NCBI RefSeq assembly: GCF_900089455.2
Contig: NZ_LT907988.1
Span: forward strand, 2,170,001 to 2,234,000
From: Orrella dioscoreae
GTDB lineage: Bacteria; Pseudomonadota; Gammaproteobacteria; Burkholderiales; Burkholderiaceae_B
Direction of reading: 5' to 3'
DNA length: 64,000 nt
The notes below the pieces were generated by a model that saw only the letters and a list, made by a program, of their open reading frames with translations, ran no database searches and was not told the origin of the DNA. The position numbers and the translations under genes were made by a program. Below, one piece after another: positions 3,646-49,245 of this stretch (position 1 is the first letter of the stretch; each line of letters begins with the position of its first letter).

Positions 3646-3769
3646 TTGCTGCGCGCGGGTTGGCGGGACATGGGGTGTTCATTAGGCTGAGCTATACTTT
3701 TGTGCTTTGTTGCTCCGCAACACTCATCGTTTCAGCTTACAGGTCCGCCCACCGCCGCCCGCGTTCGTC

Positions 3770-7610: not shown

Positions 7611-8318
7611 GTGCTAGAGTTTTTCCAGACCCTGAGCTGGGCAGCAGTGTTCCAGATCATCCTGATCGACATCCTGCTGGGGGGCGACAACGCCGTCGTG
7701 ATCGCGCTGGCGTGCCGCAACCTGGCGCCCAAGCAGCGCATGCAGGGCATTCTGTGGGGGACGGCGGGCGCCATCATCCTGCGCGTCATCCTGATCTTCT
7801 TCGCGCTGACGCTGCTGACCATCCCGTTCCTGAAGATCGTCGGCGCATTGCTGCTGGTGTGGATCGGCGTGAAGCTGCTGATTCCGGAAGATGACCATCA
7901 CGACAACATCAAGGGCGGGTCTTCCATCCTTGCGGCCATCAAGACCATCATCGTGGCCGACTTCGTGATGAGCCTGGACAACGTCATCGCCATCGCCGGC
8001 GCGGCGCAGAACGCCCACGCCGACCACCAGCTGGGCCTGGTGATCTTCGGTCTGGTCGTGAGCGTGCCCATCATCATCTGGGGCAGCACGCTGGTCCTGA
8101 AGCTGATCGACCGCTTCCCGCTGGTCGTGACTTTCGGCGCTGCACTGTTGGGCTGGATCGCCGGCGGCATGCTGATCACCGATATCATGATCGAGCGCAA
8201 CTTCGGCGTTCAGCCGCTTGTGGTCAAATTGACGGCTGAAGTCATCGGCGCCGTGCTGGTGGTCCTCCTGGGCCGCTACCTGGCTAGCCGCAAGAAAACC
8301 GCCGTCACGGAAGCCTGA
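7611..8318 (+). CDS. TerC family integral membrane protein (paralogue 2)
   Basis: A 235-residue TerC-family membrane protein, clearly paralogous to its upstream neighbour. It has LGGDNAVVIALACR near residue 22 and VADFVMSLDNVIAIAGAA near residue 121. A His/Asp-rich loop (EDDHHDN) after the third membrane segment distinguishes it from the first copy and could touch metal. It starts with GTG at 7611, with a very strong AGGGGGAG ribosome site at 7597-7604. A putative role in metal-ion transport is inferred from the family only. Confidence 0.9.
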   Translation: MLEFFQTLSWAAVFQIILIDILLGGDNAVVIALACRNLAPKQRMQGILWGTAGAIILRVILIFFALTLLTIPFLKIVGALLLVWIGVKLLIPEDDHHDNIKGGSSILAAIKTIIVADFVMSLDNVIAIAGAAQNAHADHQLGLVIFGLVVSVPIIIWGSTLVLKLIDRFPLVVTFGAALLGWIAGGMLITDIMIERNFGVQPLVVKLTAEVIGAVLVVLLGRYLASRKKTAVTEA

Positions 8319-8321
8319 GTC

Positions 8322-8444
8322 ATGAGTCTGCGCAAGTCCTCCCAGCCCCACCAAGCCGAAACTGGTCTTAGCCTGTTGGGAGGCTTGCTCGTGCTGGCGG
8401 TGATCGGCATCGCCGTCGCCGTCGCGGCCCAGTTCCTGATCTGA
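8322..8444 (+). CDS. Small single-pass membrane peptide (40 aa), unknown
   Basis: An ATG three bases after the second terC stop opens a 40-codon frame ending at TGA 8442-8444. The product has a basic N-terminus ([15 protein letters not shown]) and one strongly hydrophobic C-terminal helix ending AVAAQFLI. Tight spacing after terC suggests co-translation, and hemC follows 17 bp later. I do not recognise a family. A small inner-membrane peptide is plausible, but coding status rests on composition and spacing only. Confidence 0.55.
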
Positions 8445-44968: not shown

Positions 44969-46468
44969 ATGTTCTGGCGCAGCTTCCTGGCGTTCTGGTT
45001 GGGCATGGCCGCGATCGTGGCGGTGGGCGTCGCGCTGACGGCGTCCGTTGCCTGGCAGCGCGTCACCTCGCTGGACCGCCTGAGTCCGGCCAACCTGATG
45101 CAGGACGCCAGCCAGCTGGCGCGCCTTGAAGGGGAGACCGGCTTGCGGCGCTGGGTCCAGGCCATGGACCGCCGCTATTCCGCCTTGCGCATCTACCTGG
45201 TGGGCGAGAACGGCCAGGACCTGCTGGGCCGGGAGATTCCCTTGCGCGTGCGTGACCTGCTGGACAGCACGCCGGAAAGCTATGCCAGCGATGCGCTGCG
45301 CGGCATGGCCTATTACGCCGCGCCTTCCAGCCCCGATGCCGTGCGCCTGTCGTGGTGGGAGCCGCAATCCGTGGTGCTGCCGTCGGGTGAGTCGTTGCGC
45401 GTGGTGTTCCAGCCCTACGATGCCTCGCAATGGGATGCCCTGGGCGCCTGGCAGGTGCTGGTGGCGCTCATCGCCATTGCGCTGGTCGTGACGGCGCCCT
45501 TGTGCTGGCTGCTGGCGCGGGCCGTGAACAAGCCGGTGCAAGGCATCCAGCACGCCGCGCGCCTGCTTGCCGTGGGCAGGCTCGATGCCCGGACGCCCGC
45601 CGCCTTGAGCGGCCGGGGCGACGCGCTGGGCCAACTGTCGCGCGATTTCGACGCCATGGCCGAGCGCATGCAGGATTTCGTGCAGGCCCACGAGGCCTTG
45701 CTGCGCAACGTGGCGCATGAACTGCGTTCGCCGCTTGCGCGCCTGCAGTTGTCGGTGGAGCTGGCGCGGCGCAAGGACGGCACGCTGGACCTGCAGCTGG
45801 ACCGGATCGCGCGCGAAGGCGAACGGCTGGACGAGCTGGTGGGCAACACCTTGCGCCTGGCCCGCCTGGGCGGCATGACGCTGCCGGCCGATGCCGTGGA
45901 CCTCTCCGAGATCGTCGACCAGGTCGTGGAAAACGGCCGCTTCGAGGCCTCTGCGCGGGGCGTGCGGATTGCCTGGCATGTGGCGAACGCGGTGCCGATG
46001 CGCGGCGATCACGCCAGCCTGGAAAGCGCCGTCGAGAACATCCTGCGCAATGCCATCCGGCACAGCCGGCAGGACGGCCTGGTGCAGGTGTCCCTGTCGG
46101 CCGACGCCGACCGTGCGCGGGTGGAAATCCTGGATGCGGGCCCGGGCGTGCCCGAGGCGGAACTGGCACGCATCTTCCAGCCGTTCTACCGGGTGCGCAG
46201 CGCGGTGCCGACGGGCGGCGGCGCAGGCCTGGGCCTGAGCATCGTGCAGGCCTGCGCACGCGCGCATGGCGGCGAGGTGCTTGCCGCCAATGCCGGCGGC
46301 CAGGATGGCCAGGGCGGGCTGCGGGTCAGCCTGGTGCTGCCGCGCCGCCTGGCACGTGAGGGCGGGGCGTCAGGCCGCGACGGCTTCGCGGCGCCACACC
46401 AGTTTGCCGCCGAAGCCGAGCAACCGGTTGTCGGTCAGCTTCAGATGGTTCAGCGCGATGCGCCATAG
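44969..46468 (+). CDS. Sensor histidine kinase (CpxA-like)
   Basis: A 499-residue membrane kinase, partner of the preceding regulator. Two transmembrane helices (about residues 5-27 and 163-183) flank a periplasmic sensor region. HAMP domain with RAVNKPVQGIQHAARLLAVGRLD, H-box LLRNVAHELRSPLARLQLS, N-box ENILRNAIRHS, and G-boxes DAGPGVPEAEL and GGGAGLGLSIVQACARAHGGE. The kinase fold ends near LPRRLARE; the last roughly 40 residues (positions 46370-46468) run antisense through the next gene and have no domain. Confidence 0.92.
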   Translation: MFWRSFLAFWLGMAAIVAVGVALTASVAWQRVTSLDRLSPANLMQDASQLARLEGETGLRRWVQAMDRRYSALRIYLVGENGQDLLGREIPLRVRDLLDSTPESYASDALRGMAYYAAPSSPDAVRLSWWEPQSVVLPSGESLRVVFQPYDASQWDALGAWQVLVALIAIALVVTAPLCWLLARAVNKPVQGIQHAARLLAVGRLDARTPAALSGRGDALGQLSRDFDAMAERMQDFVQAHEALLRNVAHELRSPLARLQLSVELARRKDGTLDLQLDRIAREGERLDELVGNTLRLARLGGMTLPADAVDLSEIVDQVVENGRFEASARGVRIAWHVANAVPMRGDHASLESAVENILRNAIRHSRQDGLVQVSLSADADRARVEILDAGPGVPEAELARIFQPFYRVRSAVPTGGGAGLGLSIVQACARAHGGEVLAANAGGQDGQGGLRVSLVLPRRLAREGGASGRDGFAAPHQFAAEAEQPVVGQLQMVQRDAP

Positions 46469-46813
46469 CGGCGCCGCCATCGCGATGGCCGAGGGGAAGC
46501 GGCAATAGAAGGCGCGCTGGGCGCTTTCGAGTTCTTCCATGGGGATGAGCCGGGCCGTGCCCGAGAACTGCACACCCAGGATGTCATCGACGGACAGCGC
46601 CTGCCCGGCAATGCAGCCCGCCACGCTGGGATTCAGCGGCAAGGTGCCGCCATGCCAGGTGTCGTGCGCGGCCTGGATGATGAGGCTGGTGTCGGCGTCG
46701 TCGTAAAGATAGAAACCGTTGGCGGCCCAGGGCTTGCCGGCCCAGCAGGTGGCCAGGGAAAGCACATGGTTGTCCTCCAGGAAGCTGGCGATGCGGGCGT
46801 CGAGTGTCTGCAT
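46370..46813 (-). CDS. UPF0306 family (YhbP-like) FMN-barrel protein
   Basis: A 147-residue split-barrel protein of the YhbP/UPF0306 family, recognised by FYLYDDADTSLIIQAAHDT, AGCIAGQALSVDDILGVQFSGTARLIPMEELESAQRAFYCRFP and the C-terminal LKLTDNRLLGFGGKLVWRR, close in pattern to E. coli YhbP. Function unknown. ATG 46813 follows AAGGACT; a longer frame to 46900 has no family match. The 3' end overlaps the sensor-kinase gene by 99 bp. Confidence 0.87.
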   Translation of the reverse strand: MQTLDARIASFLEDNHVLSLATCWAGKPWAANGFYLYDDADTSLIIQAAHDTWHGGTLPLNPSVAGCIAGQALSVDDILGVQFSGTARLIPMEELESAQRAFYCRFPSAIAMAAPLWRIALNHLKLTDNRLLGFGGKLVWRREAVAA

Positions 46814-47150
46814 TGAGAGTCCTTGGGCCGCGGCAGGCGGCGGAGGAGAGAAGCGCGCTTGCGGCGCCTCGGGGTTGGCACGGCCTGACCGGCCCGGCAT
46901 GGCGTTTAAGGGGGGGCGCCAAACCGGACCGGGGGCCGTTGACGGAACAATAAGGGAGGGGGAGGTAGGGGGTATTGACGCAGGTCAATGGGGGGGAATT
47001 TGCCAGGTTTGGGGGTGTGTGCTGCTAGGTCGACGGTCATGCGCCGCTGGGTTGATGGCTTGTGTTGTGCGCCGCTGGGTTGACGGCTTGTGCACCGCTA
47101 GGTTGACGGCCGCCGAGGGTGGTCGTGCCGTCGGGCGCCTGCCGCGTGGT

Positions 47151-47169
47151 GGGGCGCCCACAGCGCCCC
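47151..47169 (+). other. GGGGCGC-CCACA-GCGCCCC hairpin, left arm
   Basis: A 7-bp stem with the same CCACA loop as the larger hairpins. The mirrored copy is at 47853-47871 in the right arm. The core GGGCGC, CCACA, GCGCCC therefore occurs four times within the inverted repeat. Confidence 0.75.
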
Positions 47170-47307
47170 GCCCCCCGCAGAAGGCGCCCGCCGTCCCGCC
47201 CACCCTCGACGTCCTGCGGTTGAGTGGTGTGTACCGGAGTCAGCCGCCGGAGTCCTGCTCGCATTCTTGCCTGCCGCTCGCTGCCTGCCCGAAGATCTTG
47301 GCTTGCC

Positions 47308-47344
47308 GCTGACCAATGGGCGCCCACAGCGCCCATTGGTCAGC
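47308..47344 (+). other. Hairpin in left arm of the inverted repeat (16-bp stem)
   Basis: GCTGACCAATGGGCGC (47308-47323), loop CCACA, then its exact reverse complement (47329-47344): a perfect 16-bp stem. The equivalent hairpin in the right arm keeps pairing with three changed stem base pairs. Confidence 0.85.
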
Positions 47345-47677
47345 ATTCGCGAAAGAAAAAGGGGCAGCTTTTGAGAGAGGGGGGAAGGGGAGTGGAGGTG
47401 GGTGGCATCGCGCTTCGGGCGGGGGCCCCCGTGAGGCTGCGTTGTCTGCTTGGAGGCGTTGTTCCGTCAGCGTGACTGAATGGCGGGAGTCTTGCGCGGG
47501 CAGAGGCACCGAGACGCATGATGAGCCAGGCGGCTTCGGCAAATTGGTGGCGGTGGTGGAGCAGCCTCCCCAAGCAGGCAACACGGCCAAGCGGCGCCCG
47601 TAGCCCGAAGCGCGCTGCCTCCCCCCTCCACCTCTCGCCCCCACTCTCCCAAAAGCTGCCCTATTGCTTTCCCGAAT

Positions 47678-47714
47678 GCTGACCGGAGGGCGCTGTGGGC
47701 GCCCTCCGGCCAGC
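47678..47714 (-). other. Hairpin in right arm of the inverted repeat (compensated stem)
   Basis: Read on the minus strand: GCTGGCCGGAGGGCGC, loop CCACA, GCGCCCTCCGGTCAGC. Stem of 16 bp with one G-T pair. Against the left copy the stem core AAT/ATT has become GGA/TCC, so pairing is kept while the sequence changed. Confidence 0.85.
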
Positions 47715-47852
47715 GGCAAGCCAAGATCTTCGGGCAGGCAGCGAGCAGAAGGCAAGAATGCGAGCAGGACCAAGGTGGCTACCCAAGGTCCAGAACACAA
47801 CATTGCAGGACGTCGAGGGTGGGCGGGACGGCGGGCGCCTTCTGCGGGGGGC

Positions 47853-47871
47853 GGGGCGCTGTGGGCGCCCC
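47853..47871 (-). other. GGGGCGC-CCACA-GCGCCCC hairpin, right arm
   Basis: Mirror copy of the hairpin at 47151-47169, with stem and loop unchanged on the minus strand. The surrounding 115 bp are almost identical between arms. Confidence 0.75.
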
Positions 47872-48036
47872 ACCACGCGGCAGGCGACCGACGGCACGAC
47901 CACCCTCGGCGGCCGTCAACGAAGCGGTGCGCAAGCCGTCAACCTAGCAGTGCACAACACAAGCCATCAACCCAGCGGCGCATGACAACCCAAGCCAACG
48001 CCCCCGAATCCAATCAAGCCCCCTCCAGCAGCGTCT

Positions 48037-49245
48037 CTACTTGATCATCTGGTTCATCTCGATGATCGGCATCATCACCGCCAGCACGATCACCAGCACG
48101 ACTCCGCCCATGATCAGGATCATCAGCGGCTCCAGCATCGCCGTCATCGCCATCGCCCGTCGCTCCAGGTCGCGCGACAAGGTTCCCGCCGCGCGCTCCA
48201 GCATCGGCGGCATGTCCCCGGTCCGTTCGCCGCTGGCGATCAGGTGGACCAGCAGGGGCGGAAAGACCTGCTGGGTTTGCAGCGAGGCGGCCAGTGCCGC
48301 GCCCTCGCGTACGCGGCTGGTGGCGTCGGTCACGGCGGCGCGCAGGCGCACGTTCGTCAGCGTGTCGCGCGCCGCGTCCAGTGCCCGCAGCAGCGACACG
48401 CCGCTGCCGCCCAGGATCGCCAGCGTCGACGCGAAGCGCGCCGCGTTCACGCCCAGTTCGAAGCGGCCGAACACCGGCAGCTTCAGCAGCTTGGCGTGCC
48501 ACGCCAGCCGCGCCGCCGGCGCGCGCAGGCGCAGCCGCCACAGCGTCACGGCCAGGGCCAGCGCCACCGCTGCGATCACGCCCCAGTCGCGCACCAGGCT
48601 GCTGGCGCCCATCATCATGCGGGTCAGCAGCGGCAATTGCTGCTTGGTGTGGGCGAAGGCGCCCACCACCTGCGGCACCACGTAGCCCAGCAGGAAGAAC
48701 ACGATGCAGACGGACACCACCGCCACGATGGCGGGATAGATGAAGGCCGTCATCACCTTGCCGCGCAAGGCGTTGCGTTCCTCGATGTAGTCGGCCAGCT
48801 TCTCCATCACGCGGGCGAGGTCGCCGGATTCCTCGCCGGCCGCCACCAGCGCCCGATAGATCTCGGGGAAGTCGCGCGGGCGGGCGCCCAGCGCGTCCTG
48901 CAGGCGGTGGCCGGCGCGCACGTCCGCGCGGACGGCCGCCAGGGCGTGGGCCACGTGGCGTTTTTCCGACTGGTCCAGCGTCGCCGAGAGCGCCGCGTCC
49001 AGCGACAGGCCGGCGGCCAGCAGGCCCGACAGCTGGCGCGTCAGCCAGCCCAGGTCCGCGTCGGACAGCGTCGGTCCGAAGCGGCCCTGCACGCCCGCGC
49101 GGGTGCGGCCGGCTTCCTTGACCGACAGCGGCACCAGGCCGCGGCCGCGCAGGACGCCGCGCGCGCCGCGGTCGGAATCGGCGTCGACGAGACCGCGTTC
49201 GCGCTTGCCCGCGGCATCGACGGCTTCGTAATGAAAGGACGGCAT
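48037..49245 (-). CDS. gspF: Type II secretion inner-membrane platform protein GspF
   Basis: A 402-residue T2SSF protein. N-terminal FHYEAVDAAGKRERGLVDADSDRGARGVLRGRGLVPLSV, two T2SSF domains (LTRQLSGLLAAGLSLDAALSATLDQ and FASTLAILGGSGVSLLRALDAARDTLTNV) and three transmembrane segments; ends MMPIIEMNQMIK. It anchors the GspE ATPase to the pseudopilus base. Last gene of the minus-strand gsp operon, 19 bp after gspE. Confidence 0.95.
   Translation of the reverse strand: MPSFHYEAVDAAGKRERGLVDADSDRGARGVLRGRGLVPLSVKEAGRTRAGVQGRFGPTLSDADLGWLTRQLSGLLAAGLSLDAALSATLDQSEKRHVAHALAAVRADVRAGHRLQDALGARPRDFPEIYRALVAAGEESGDLARVMEKLADYIEERNALRGKVMTAFIYPAIVAVVSVCIVFFLLGYVVPQVVGAFAHTKQQLPLLTRMMMGASSLVRDWGVIAAVALALAVTLWRLRLRAPAARLAWHAKLLKLPVFGRFELGVNAARFASTLAILGGSGVSLLRALDAARDTLTNVRLRAAVTDATSRVREGAALAASLQTQQVFPPLLVHLIASGERTGDMPPMLERAAGTLSRDLERRAMAMTAMLEPLMILIMGGVVLVIVLAVMMPIIEMNQMIK

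Follow-up and report, generated by a model that had tools for sequence, protein, structure and literature searches.

A dispersed family of giant nested palindromes with one replication orientation in the genome of Orrella dioscoreae

We describe a family of long, nested palindromes in which a core of about 0.82 kb is dispersed as a unit at 10 loci of a single bacterial genome, with remnants at 4 further loci. All ten long copies lie in one orientation relative to the replication fork, and at one locus the element is extra DNA that two relatives lack. Judging from sequence comparison, we give an even chance to the view that these are non-autonomous, REPIN/MITE-like, mobile-like elements of nested-palindrome build that would spread via a hairpin in lagging-strand template DNA.

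Results

A real, long palindrome in the analysed window

The window, that is, the whole 64-kb stretch of DNA that was analysed, covers positions 2,170,001-2,234,000 of a genome assembled as one contig of 4,848,101 bp. A sequence-only reading had pointed to a near-palindrome at 47036-47986 of the window, and this palindrome is real, if imperfect. Its outer arms (47036-47363 and 47659-47986, 328 nt) are 89% complementary, and its inner arms (47362-47489 and 47534-47661, 128 nt) are 71% complementary with 44 nt in between. Aligned to its own reverse complement the stretch gives 955 columns at 81.7% identity. The + strand has a fold energy of -889 kcal/mol, as compared with a mean of -469 (s.d. 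9) in 20 shuffles, and the - strand one of -856 kcal/mol, as compared with -453 (20 shuffles); since these energies are far below those of the shuffles, a chance origin of the palindrome is excluded. When 20 stretches of 20 kb sampled from this genome were screened with an identical threshold, palindromes and nearby inverted repeats reached at most 46 bp.

None of the six open reading frames (ORFs) in the palindrome had a Pfam match up to an E value of 0.1. A coding element was rejected on this ground, and the earlier remark that the element holds no transposase or integrase was upheld. An insertion associated with a tRNA was also rejected, as the window is without any tRNA.

Parts of the element

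Complete copies are ordered, from the outside in, as 23-nt arrays, a 107-bp outer hairpin, a middle stretch, a 37-nt inner hairpin with an inner arm, and a unique centre (Table 1).

Table 1. Features of the palindromic element and its neighbours (window coordinates)
Feature	Position	Strand	Remarks
Core, 817 bp, TTGACGGCCGCCGAG ... CTCGGCGGCCGTCAA	47103..47919	+	Long in 10 places of the genome
Left array, degenerate 23-nt units TTGTGCACCGCTNNGTTGACGGC	47016..47102	+	4 recognisable units including the core-edge one; outermost decayed
Right array, 23-nt unit inverted	47912..47986	-	3 recognisable units including the core-edge one
Left outer hairpin, 107-bp imperfect palindrome	47108..47214	+	~98% identical across arms and copies
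Right outer hairpin, inverted copy of the left one, 107 bp	47808..47914	-	
Left inner hairpin, 16-bp stem, 5-nt loop	47308..47344	+	Copies differ by compensatory changes at two pairs
Right inner hairpin, 16-bp stem, 94% complementary	47678..47714	+	
17-nt direct repeat GGGCGCCCACAGCGCCC in left outer hairpin	47152..47168	+	
17-nt repeat, second copy, inside left inner hairpin	47318..47334	+	
17-nt repeat inside right inner hairpin	47688..47704	-	
17-nt repeat in right outer hairpin	47854..47870	-	
Centre between inner arms	47490..47533	+	Helps give the element an orientation
Neighbour gspF (T2SSF)	48037..49245	-	Stop codon 51 bp from element
Neighbour pyridoxamine 5'-phosphate oxidase-like gene	46370..46900	-	5' end faces element

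Copies are named here by their kb position, and win (2217) is the copy in the window. Counting the core-edge unit, seven of the 10 long copies have at least two array units on both sides; c1759 and c4550 carry the core-edge unit alone on each side, and c3551 has its core-edge units plus one distant weak match to the 23-nt unit. The outer edge of the arrays is fuzzy, and a fixed terminus is absent. Searched for with up to 3 mismatches, a pattern of two array units turns up at 22 positions in the genome, all of them adjacent to family members, as compared with 0 for a reversed-pattern control. A 16-nt end motif has 30 exact matches, all of them at family members; when mismatches were permitted this motif gave 86 forward and 94 reverse matches, as compared with 55 and 31 in the control, and some of the matches listed lie at places outside family members. 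Copy c3551 (L026:2911-2998 and 3667-3714) lacks 23-nt arrays outside its core edges; both of its ends are instead accompanied by repeats of a 9-bp unit (GCGGTACTG/A) in inverted orientation, which look as if a new array had grown out of the local flank.

The core measures 815-819 bp in seven copies, which are complete, and 651-652 bp in three, which have one arm shortened. A deletion of ~166 bp between the 17-nt repeats affects the left arm of c3551 and c3522 (between the equivalents of 47152-47168 and 47318-47334), and a mirror deletion of ~166 bp affects the right arm of c4550 (between the equivalents of 47688-47704 and 47854-47870).

Fourteen places in one genome

A BLAST search of the genome gave at least 39 matches, both strands counted (40 scored of 68 candidates), which resolve to 14 places: 10 long copies and 4 short remnants (Table 2). 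A covariance model of the outer hairpin gave at least 42 matches (150 scored of 9734 candidates), all at the same 14 places. The nine other long copies are 89-95% identical to win, in register, in their best BLAST matches, and the long copies have distinct flanks. The sequence-only reading would have been refuted by a lack of further copies, which these matches contradict. Its proposal of a non-autonomous dispersed repeat family stood; a tail-to-tail pair built of units that occur on their own as well was not what we saw, a lone arm of ~420 bp being absent from the BLAST matches.

Table 2. The 14 places of the family, with Pfam assignments of the flanking genes
Place	Type	Strand	Flanks
win (2217)	Long copy	+	gspF / PNPOx-like
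c3203	Long copy	-	Response regulator / thiolase
c1145	Long copy	+	Acyl-CoA dehydrogenase / glyoxalase family
c3775	Long copy	-	Fumarase / 73-aa Sel_put protein and CstA
c3642	Long copy	-	YbeY / GntR
c3469	Long copy	-	Histidine phosphatase / SDR
c1759	Long copy	+	RmuC / RpiA
c3551	Long copy	-	Aminotransferase class IV / ThiF
c3522	Long copy	-	Histidine kinase / Glu-Gln tRNA synthetase
c4550	Long copy	-	Thiolase / PP-loop protein
c3527	Lone outer hairpin (~135 bp)		Cytochrome bd subunit II / MinC
c683	Lone outer hairpin (~135 bp)		EAL / aminotransferase
c4435	Fragment		CheD / POR family
c660	Fragment		PhoD / GntR

Two members, c3522 and c3527, lie ~4.4 kb apart (L027:3043-3792 and 8189-8374) and have a tRNA synthetase gene as well as those of cytochrome bd between them.

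Arms that probably diverged before the spread, and mosaic copies

Left and right arms are as similar within a copy as between copies. In the 7 complete copies the left-right identity is 0.981 within and 0.982 between copies for the outer hairpin, 0.804 and 0.808 for the middle stretch, and 0.686 and 0.683 for the inner hairpin with the inner arm. A homogenisation of the arms within each core was rejected on this basis. From this equality we infer that the arms diverged before the family spread and that the whole palindrome, rather than a single arm, was probably the unit of spread.

The long copies are mosaics of one another. The part common to all 10 copies yields 561 pairs of informative two-state sites; all four combinations occur in 352 of them, namely in 33 of the 84 pairs no more than 30 bp apart and in 319 of the 477 more widely spaced pairs. 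Short-tract exchange between copies would give this pattern. As read from the alignment, the right arms of c1759 and c3775 carry middle-stretch variants that are otherwise of left-arm type. Hypervariable short blocks (47216-47252, 47272-47275 and the NN of the 23-nt unit) were also seen in otherwise invariant sequence, and some of their variants recur in the left arm of one copy and the right arm of another.

Structure across the copies

The consensus long fold of the 7 complete copies comprises 351 pairs with 97.9% of cells paired, and 9 of these pairs show a compensatory double change, as compared with 2, 4, 1 and 0 in four slid controls; a fold into local hairpins comprises 265 pairs with 7 compensatory changes, as compared with 3, 0, 2 and 0, in a test that favours both folds because they were derived from the same sequences. 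At pairs that vary, the share of cells still paired is 87% for the long fold and 92% for the local fold. The clearest covariation consists of two swapped pairs in the left inner hairpin. These data lend modest backing to a maintained structure, and the compensatory changes could also stem from hairpin-templated repair.

In all 10 copies the + strand of the element folds better than the - strand, with more G-T pairs. The lagging-strand template undergoes strand-biased cytosine deamination, and strand-biased C-to-T change alone could result in the better + fold. Since the copies moreover share ancestry, so that the ten are not ten independent tests, this regularity is weaker as a sign of selection.

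One orientation relative to the fork

The dnaA gene lies at 4,846.6-4,846.8 kb. Up to 2.5 Mb the GC skew has a positive sign in 9 of 12 samples, the negative ones being those at 100, 2120 and 2300 kb; it is likewise positive in 7 of 8 pieces of the window, and it is negative in all 8 samples from 2.6 Mb on. The terminus is therefore placed near the sign change at 2.5-2.6 Mb, and only roughly so, because 3 of the 12 samples before 2.5 Mb are exceptions. By the strands given in Table 2, every long copy is turned the same way with respect to the fork (10 of 10, two-sided p = 0.002; the 4 short remnants, which are not orientable, were left out of the count), and in each of them the + strand of the element is the lagging-strand template. 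Gene direction does not explain this orientation, because the long copies between tandem genes split 2:2, with c1759 and c4550 along transcription and win and c3203 against it.

Sites behind genes

A stop codon lies within 52 bp of the element at all 14 places, with element edges taken to include the arrays where BLAST matched them. Eight of the places are between convergent genes, six between tandem genes and none between divergent genes. In a 400-kb sample, with genes called by a simple codon-composition rule, convergent gaps make up 20% of the intergenic bases (10.2 of 50.9 kb); the excess of convergent sites has p = 0.002 for 8 of 14 places and p = 0.006 for 6 of 10 long copies, and the chance of seeing no divergent case is 0.025. 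A Pfam family was found for 32 of 34 flanking ORF queries, the other two being alternative frames without a match.

Extra DNA at rmuC-rpiA

We compared 30 rpiA loci, drawn from the 41 genomes that had a match. The rmuC gene adjoins rpiA in three of these 30 loci: in the present genome and in two relatives, G005 and G014, whose RmuC proteins are 79% and 78% identical to that of the present genome. Between the stop codon of rmuC and the start of rpiA lie 966 bp here (assuming the rpiA start codon judged to match the relatives), as compared with 82 bp in G005 and, depending on the start codon chosen, 137 or 227 bp in G014. The core of c1759 lies 18 bp behind the rmuC stop, and the element constitutes extra DNA missing from the two relatives. 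Between core and rpiA a single piece of 27 bp is recognisable in G005 (81%, E = 0.03), and the exact insertion point is for this reason not readable across genera.

We make no claim that the palindrome grows into its flanks: inverted similarity of the flanks is 7.3, slightly above the 6.4 of a different-copy control, and is strongest in c4550 and c3469.

Distribution

In a DNA search of 61 genomes (up to 7 candidates scored per genome, with the genus represented by the present genome alone) the family was found in the present genome only. The covariance model of the outer hairpin, run with strict filters over 268 genomes of the family from 43 genera (11 candidates scored for each of the genomes listed), likewise matched this genome only. 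With blastn at E 1e-5 there was no match in 72,556 plasmid records or 50,697 phage records, and two exact motifs were absent from viral contigs; a phage or plasmid origin was rejected on these grounds. Among genome contigs other than our own, a 22-base motif occurs in four records, namely two actinobacteria, an actinobacterial MAG and a planctomycete MAG. We read these as chance, since the shared pieces, around the motif or elsewhere, are at most 43 bp.

Transposase and SbcD

The Y1 transposase model (PF01797; RAYT/IS200 type) has no match in the present genome and matches in 5 of 14 control genomes, and an element borne by a resident RAYT or IS200 was accordingly rejected. The SbcD model (TIGR00619) also has no match here, and matches in 13 of 14 controls, 8 of them over the cut-off. 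Long palindromes are held to be unstable, partly via cleavage by SbcCD. Among 61 related genomes the SbcD model has some match in 32 and one above the cut-off in 4; because only these 4 exceed it, the absence is permissive, not specific. Here, as in much of the order, the genetic background may tolerate long palindromes, which does not set this species apart. In 20 of 36 same-family relatives (G001-G036) we observed a protein with an open frame of 379-568 aa and a weak match of ~44-58 bits to the SbcD model, and the present genome (G000) has none.

Discussion

Comparison with known systems

Stem-loop repeat families of bacteria are mostly short: in one survey, 67 of 92 measured 31-200 bp (PMC2267715). 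REPINs, which go with RAYT transposases, are described as dispersed, extragenic and hairpin-forming, with a suspected single-stranded DNA hairpin intermediate (PMC3116915). The present element resembles them in these traits and also in its inverted conserved ends, which form one hairpin, in its compensatory two-sided changes and in its spread as a unit (PMC3116915). It does so in a much larger form, and differs in its unit of ~0.8-0.95 kb, its nested hairpins, its 23-nt arrays and its number of about 10 long copies; the genome has 0 PF01797 matches, that is, no cognate RAYT.

IS200/IS605 elements and their non-autonomous derivatives are likewise reported to follow replication in their orientation, to have their secondary structures recognised and to use the lagging-strand template (PMC5371812, PMC6006769), an orientation found in all 10 long copies here. 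They have short subterminal hairpins, whereas the present element is a giant end-to-end palindrome, and its genome gave no match for a source of the Y1 transposase TnpA. By analogy, the element would work most like a REPIN or an IS200/IS605 derivative. We do not file it as either, because the Y1 transposase, a defining feature of each, has no match in the genome.

Two further comparisons concern dispersed repeats as such. The BRE of Bordetella is, like the present element, a GC-rich dispersed repeat of the Alcaligenaceae (a placing of the present genome that is a label from the sequence-only reading), usually intergenic and sometimes tandem (PMC3110155). It is set apart by description, in size and distribution: it measures ~90 bp, occurs in several Betaproteobacteria and is reported as not co-oriented with the fork (PMC3110155). 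Ppu-1 (617 bp, intergenic) and REPLEP (740 bp), large stem-loop repeat families from a 2008 survey, share dispersal, intergenic position, stem-loops and a length of hundreds of bp; the section of that survey devoted to them does not describe them as one full-length palindrome, which sets them apart by description (PMC2267715). The published families compared differ from the present one in size or shape. In a largely open-access literature on dispersed palindromic repeats, MITEs and SbcCD with palindromes, we found no description of the present family.

Proposed spread and its alternatives

We propose that one strand of the element, the lagging-strand template, would fold into a giant hairpin when single-stranded. 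This hairpin would then have been copied to other sites, either by a trans-acting enzyme or through repair or recombination by the host, in the manner supposed for REPINs or IS200/IS605-type elements. In favour of this view we count the dispersed copies with distinct flanks, the single fork orientation, the stop-codon and convergent sites, the extra DNA at rmuC-rpiA, the mosaic copies, the deletions at the 17-nt repeats, the better + fold and the missing SbcD match. Against it stand the failure to find a Y1 transposase in the genome or any transposase among the 34 flanking ORF queries, the lack of a target duplication and the fuzzy outer edge of the arrays. Once inserted, the copies could persist owing to their diverged arms and the missing SbcD, and could exchange tracts by gene conversion. 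Incidentally, the element may serve the flanking transcripts on both sides as a two-way hairpin at their 3' ends.

Only tentatively do we go further and suggest that the family might represent a class of giant hairpins, nearly 1 kb long and palindromic over their whole length, which replicate via single-stranded lagging-strand DNA in a lineage without SbcD. Their mover would then be unrelated to Y1/RAYT, or would be host replication and repair alone, and the 23-nt arrays would be growing ends.

It seems unlikely to us that the family is a MITE-type derivative of a lost DDE transposon, with the 23-nt arrays as transposase binding sites and the fork orientation brought about by clamp-coupled target choice. 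MITEs are defined as non-autonomous with inverted terminal sequences, and Tn7- or IS21-like elements have ends with several 22-23-bp transposase sites; the present element has terminal inverted repeats in its inverted 23-nt units and core ends. Bacterial MITEs are the subject of PMC6382973 and PMC2229807, and a replication-linked orientation bias is reported for Tn7, where TnsE mediates it, as well as for several IS families (PMC5371812). A DDE origin is opposed by the edges of the 10 long copies, where the longest exact direct match averages 2.30 in same-copy and 2.30 in different-copy comparisons; there is thus no target duplication above the control, just as the sequence-only reading had reported. 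Also contrary to a DDE origin, the number of array units varies without a fixed outer terminus, being down to the core-edge unit per side in c1759 and c4550, and the Pfam scan of the 34 flanking ORF queries found no transposase. Unlike MITEs, the element is palindromic over its whole length, and no parent element came to light among these ORFs or at the 30 exact matches of the 16-nt end motif, which all lie at family members.

We also doubt that the element is a functional structured RNA, or a two-way terminator or 3'-end stabiliser, that was duplicated by recombination and selected behind genes. The nearness of stop codons at 14 of 14 places, the very high conservation of the outer hairpins and the compensatory double changes at 9 of 351 long-fold pairs (0-4 in the controls, with the fold drawn from the same sequences) would all suit such a role, although hairpin-templated repair can yield the last of these as well. 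The flanking genes are mutually unrelated, and the element has no match in the related genomes searched and is absent at rmuC-rpiA of two relatives. Consensus scans of 46300-48600 found neither a promoter-like nor a terminator-like site within the element, and a promoter there was rejected. Rfam gave nothing credible for the element over the whole 64-kb window at the gathering cut-off, and at E up to 1 only two matches in 46900-48060, far below gathering scores; a group II intron or other known structured RNA was rejected accordingly.

Very improbable, in our judgement, is a selfish spread that relies on homologous recombination or template switching and nothing else, in which fork breakage at the palindrome is repaired at another site and no transposase takes part. 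It would agree with the mosaic copies, with the exchange of arm types in c1759 and c3775, and with the lack of both a Y1 transposase and a target duplication; it leaves unexplained the discrete core edges common to 10 copies, and an unsystematic look noticed no common homology at the new sites. Assembly artefacts are known to arise at palindromes, but an inverted duplication of reads is hardly credible for ten loci with different flanks and different sequence variants, in a single-contig genome and with arms 68-98% alike by zone, not identical.

On the reading that we prefer, of non-autonomous elements spread via a lagging-strand hairpin, the family would let one test whether such hairpins drive mobility without a known transposase. 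Palindromes of ~0.9 kb from end to end, at ten fork-oriented sites in one genome of those searched, would also constitute a natural system for the survival of long palindromes, and the family would show how nested hairpins evolve by conversion and repeat-bounded deletion.
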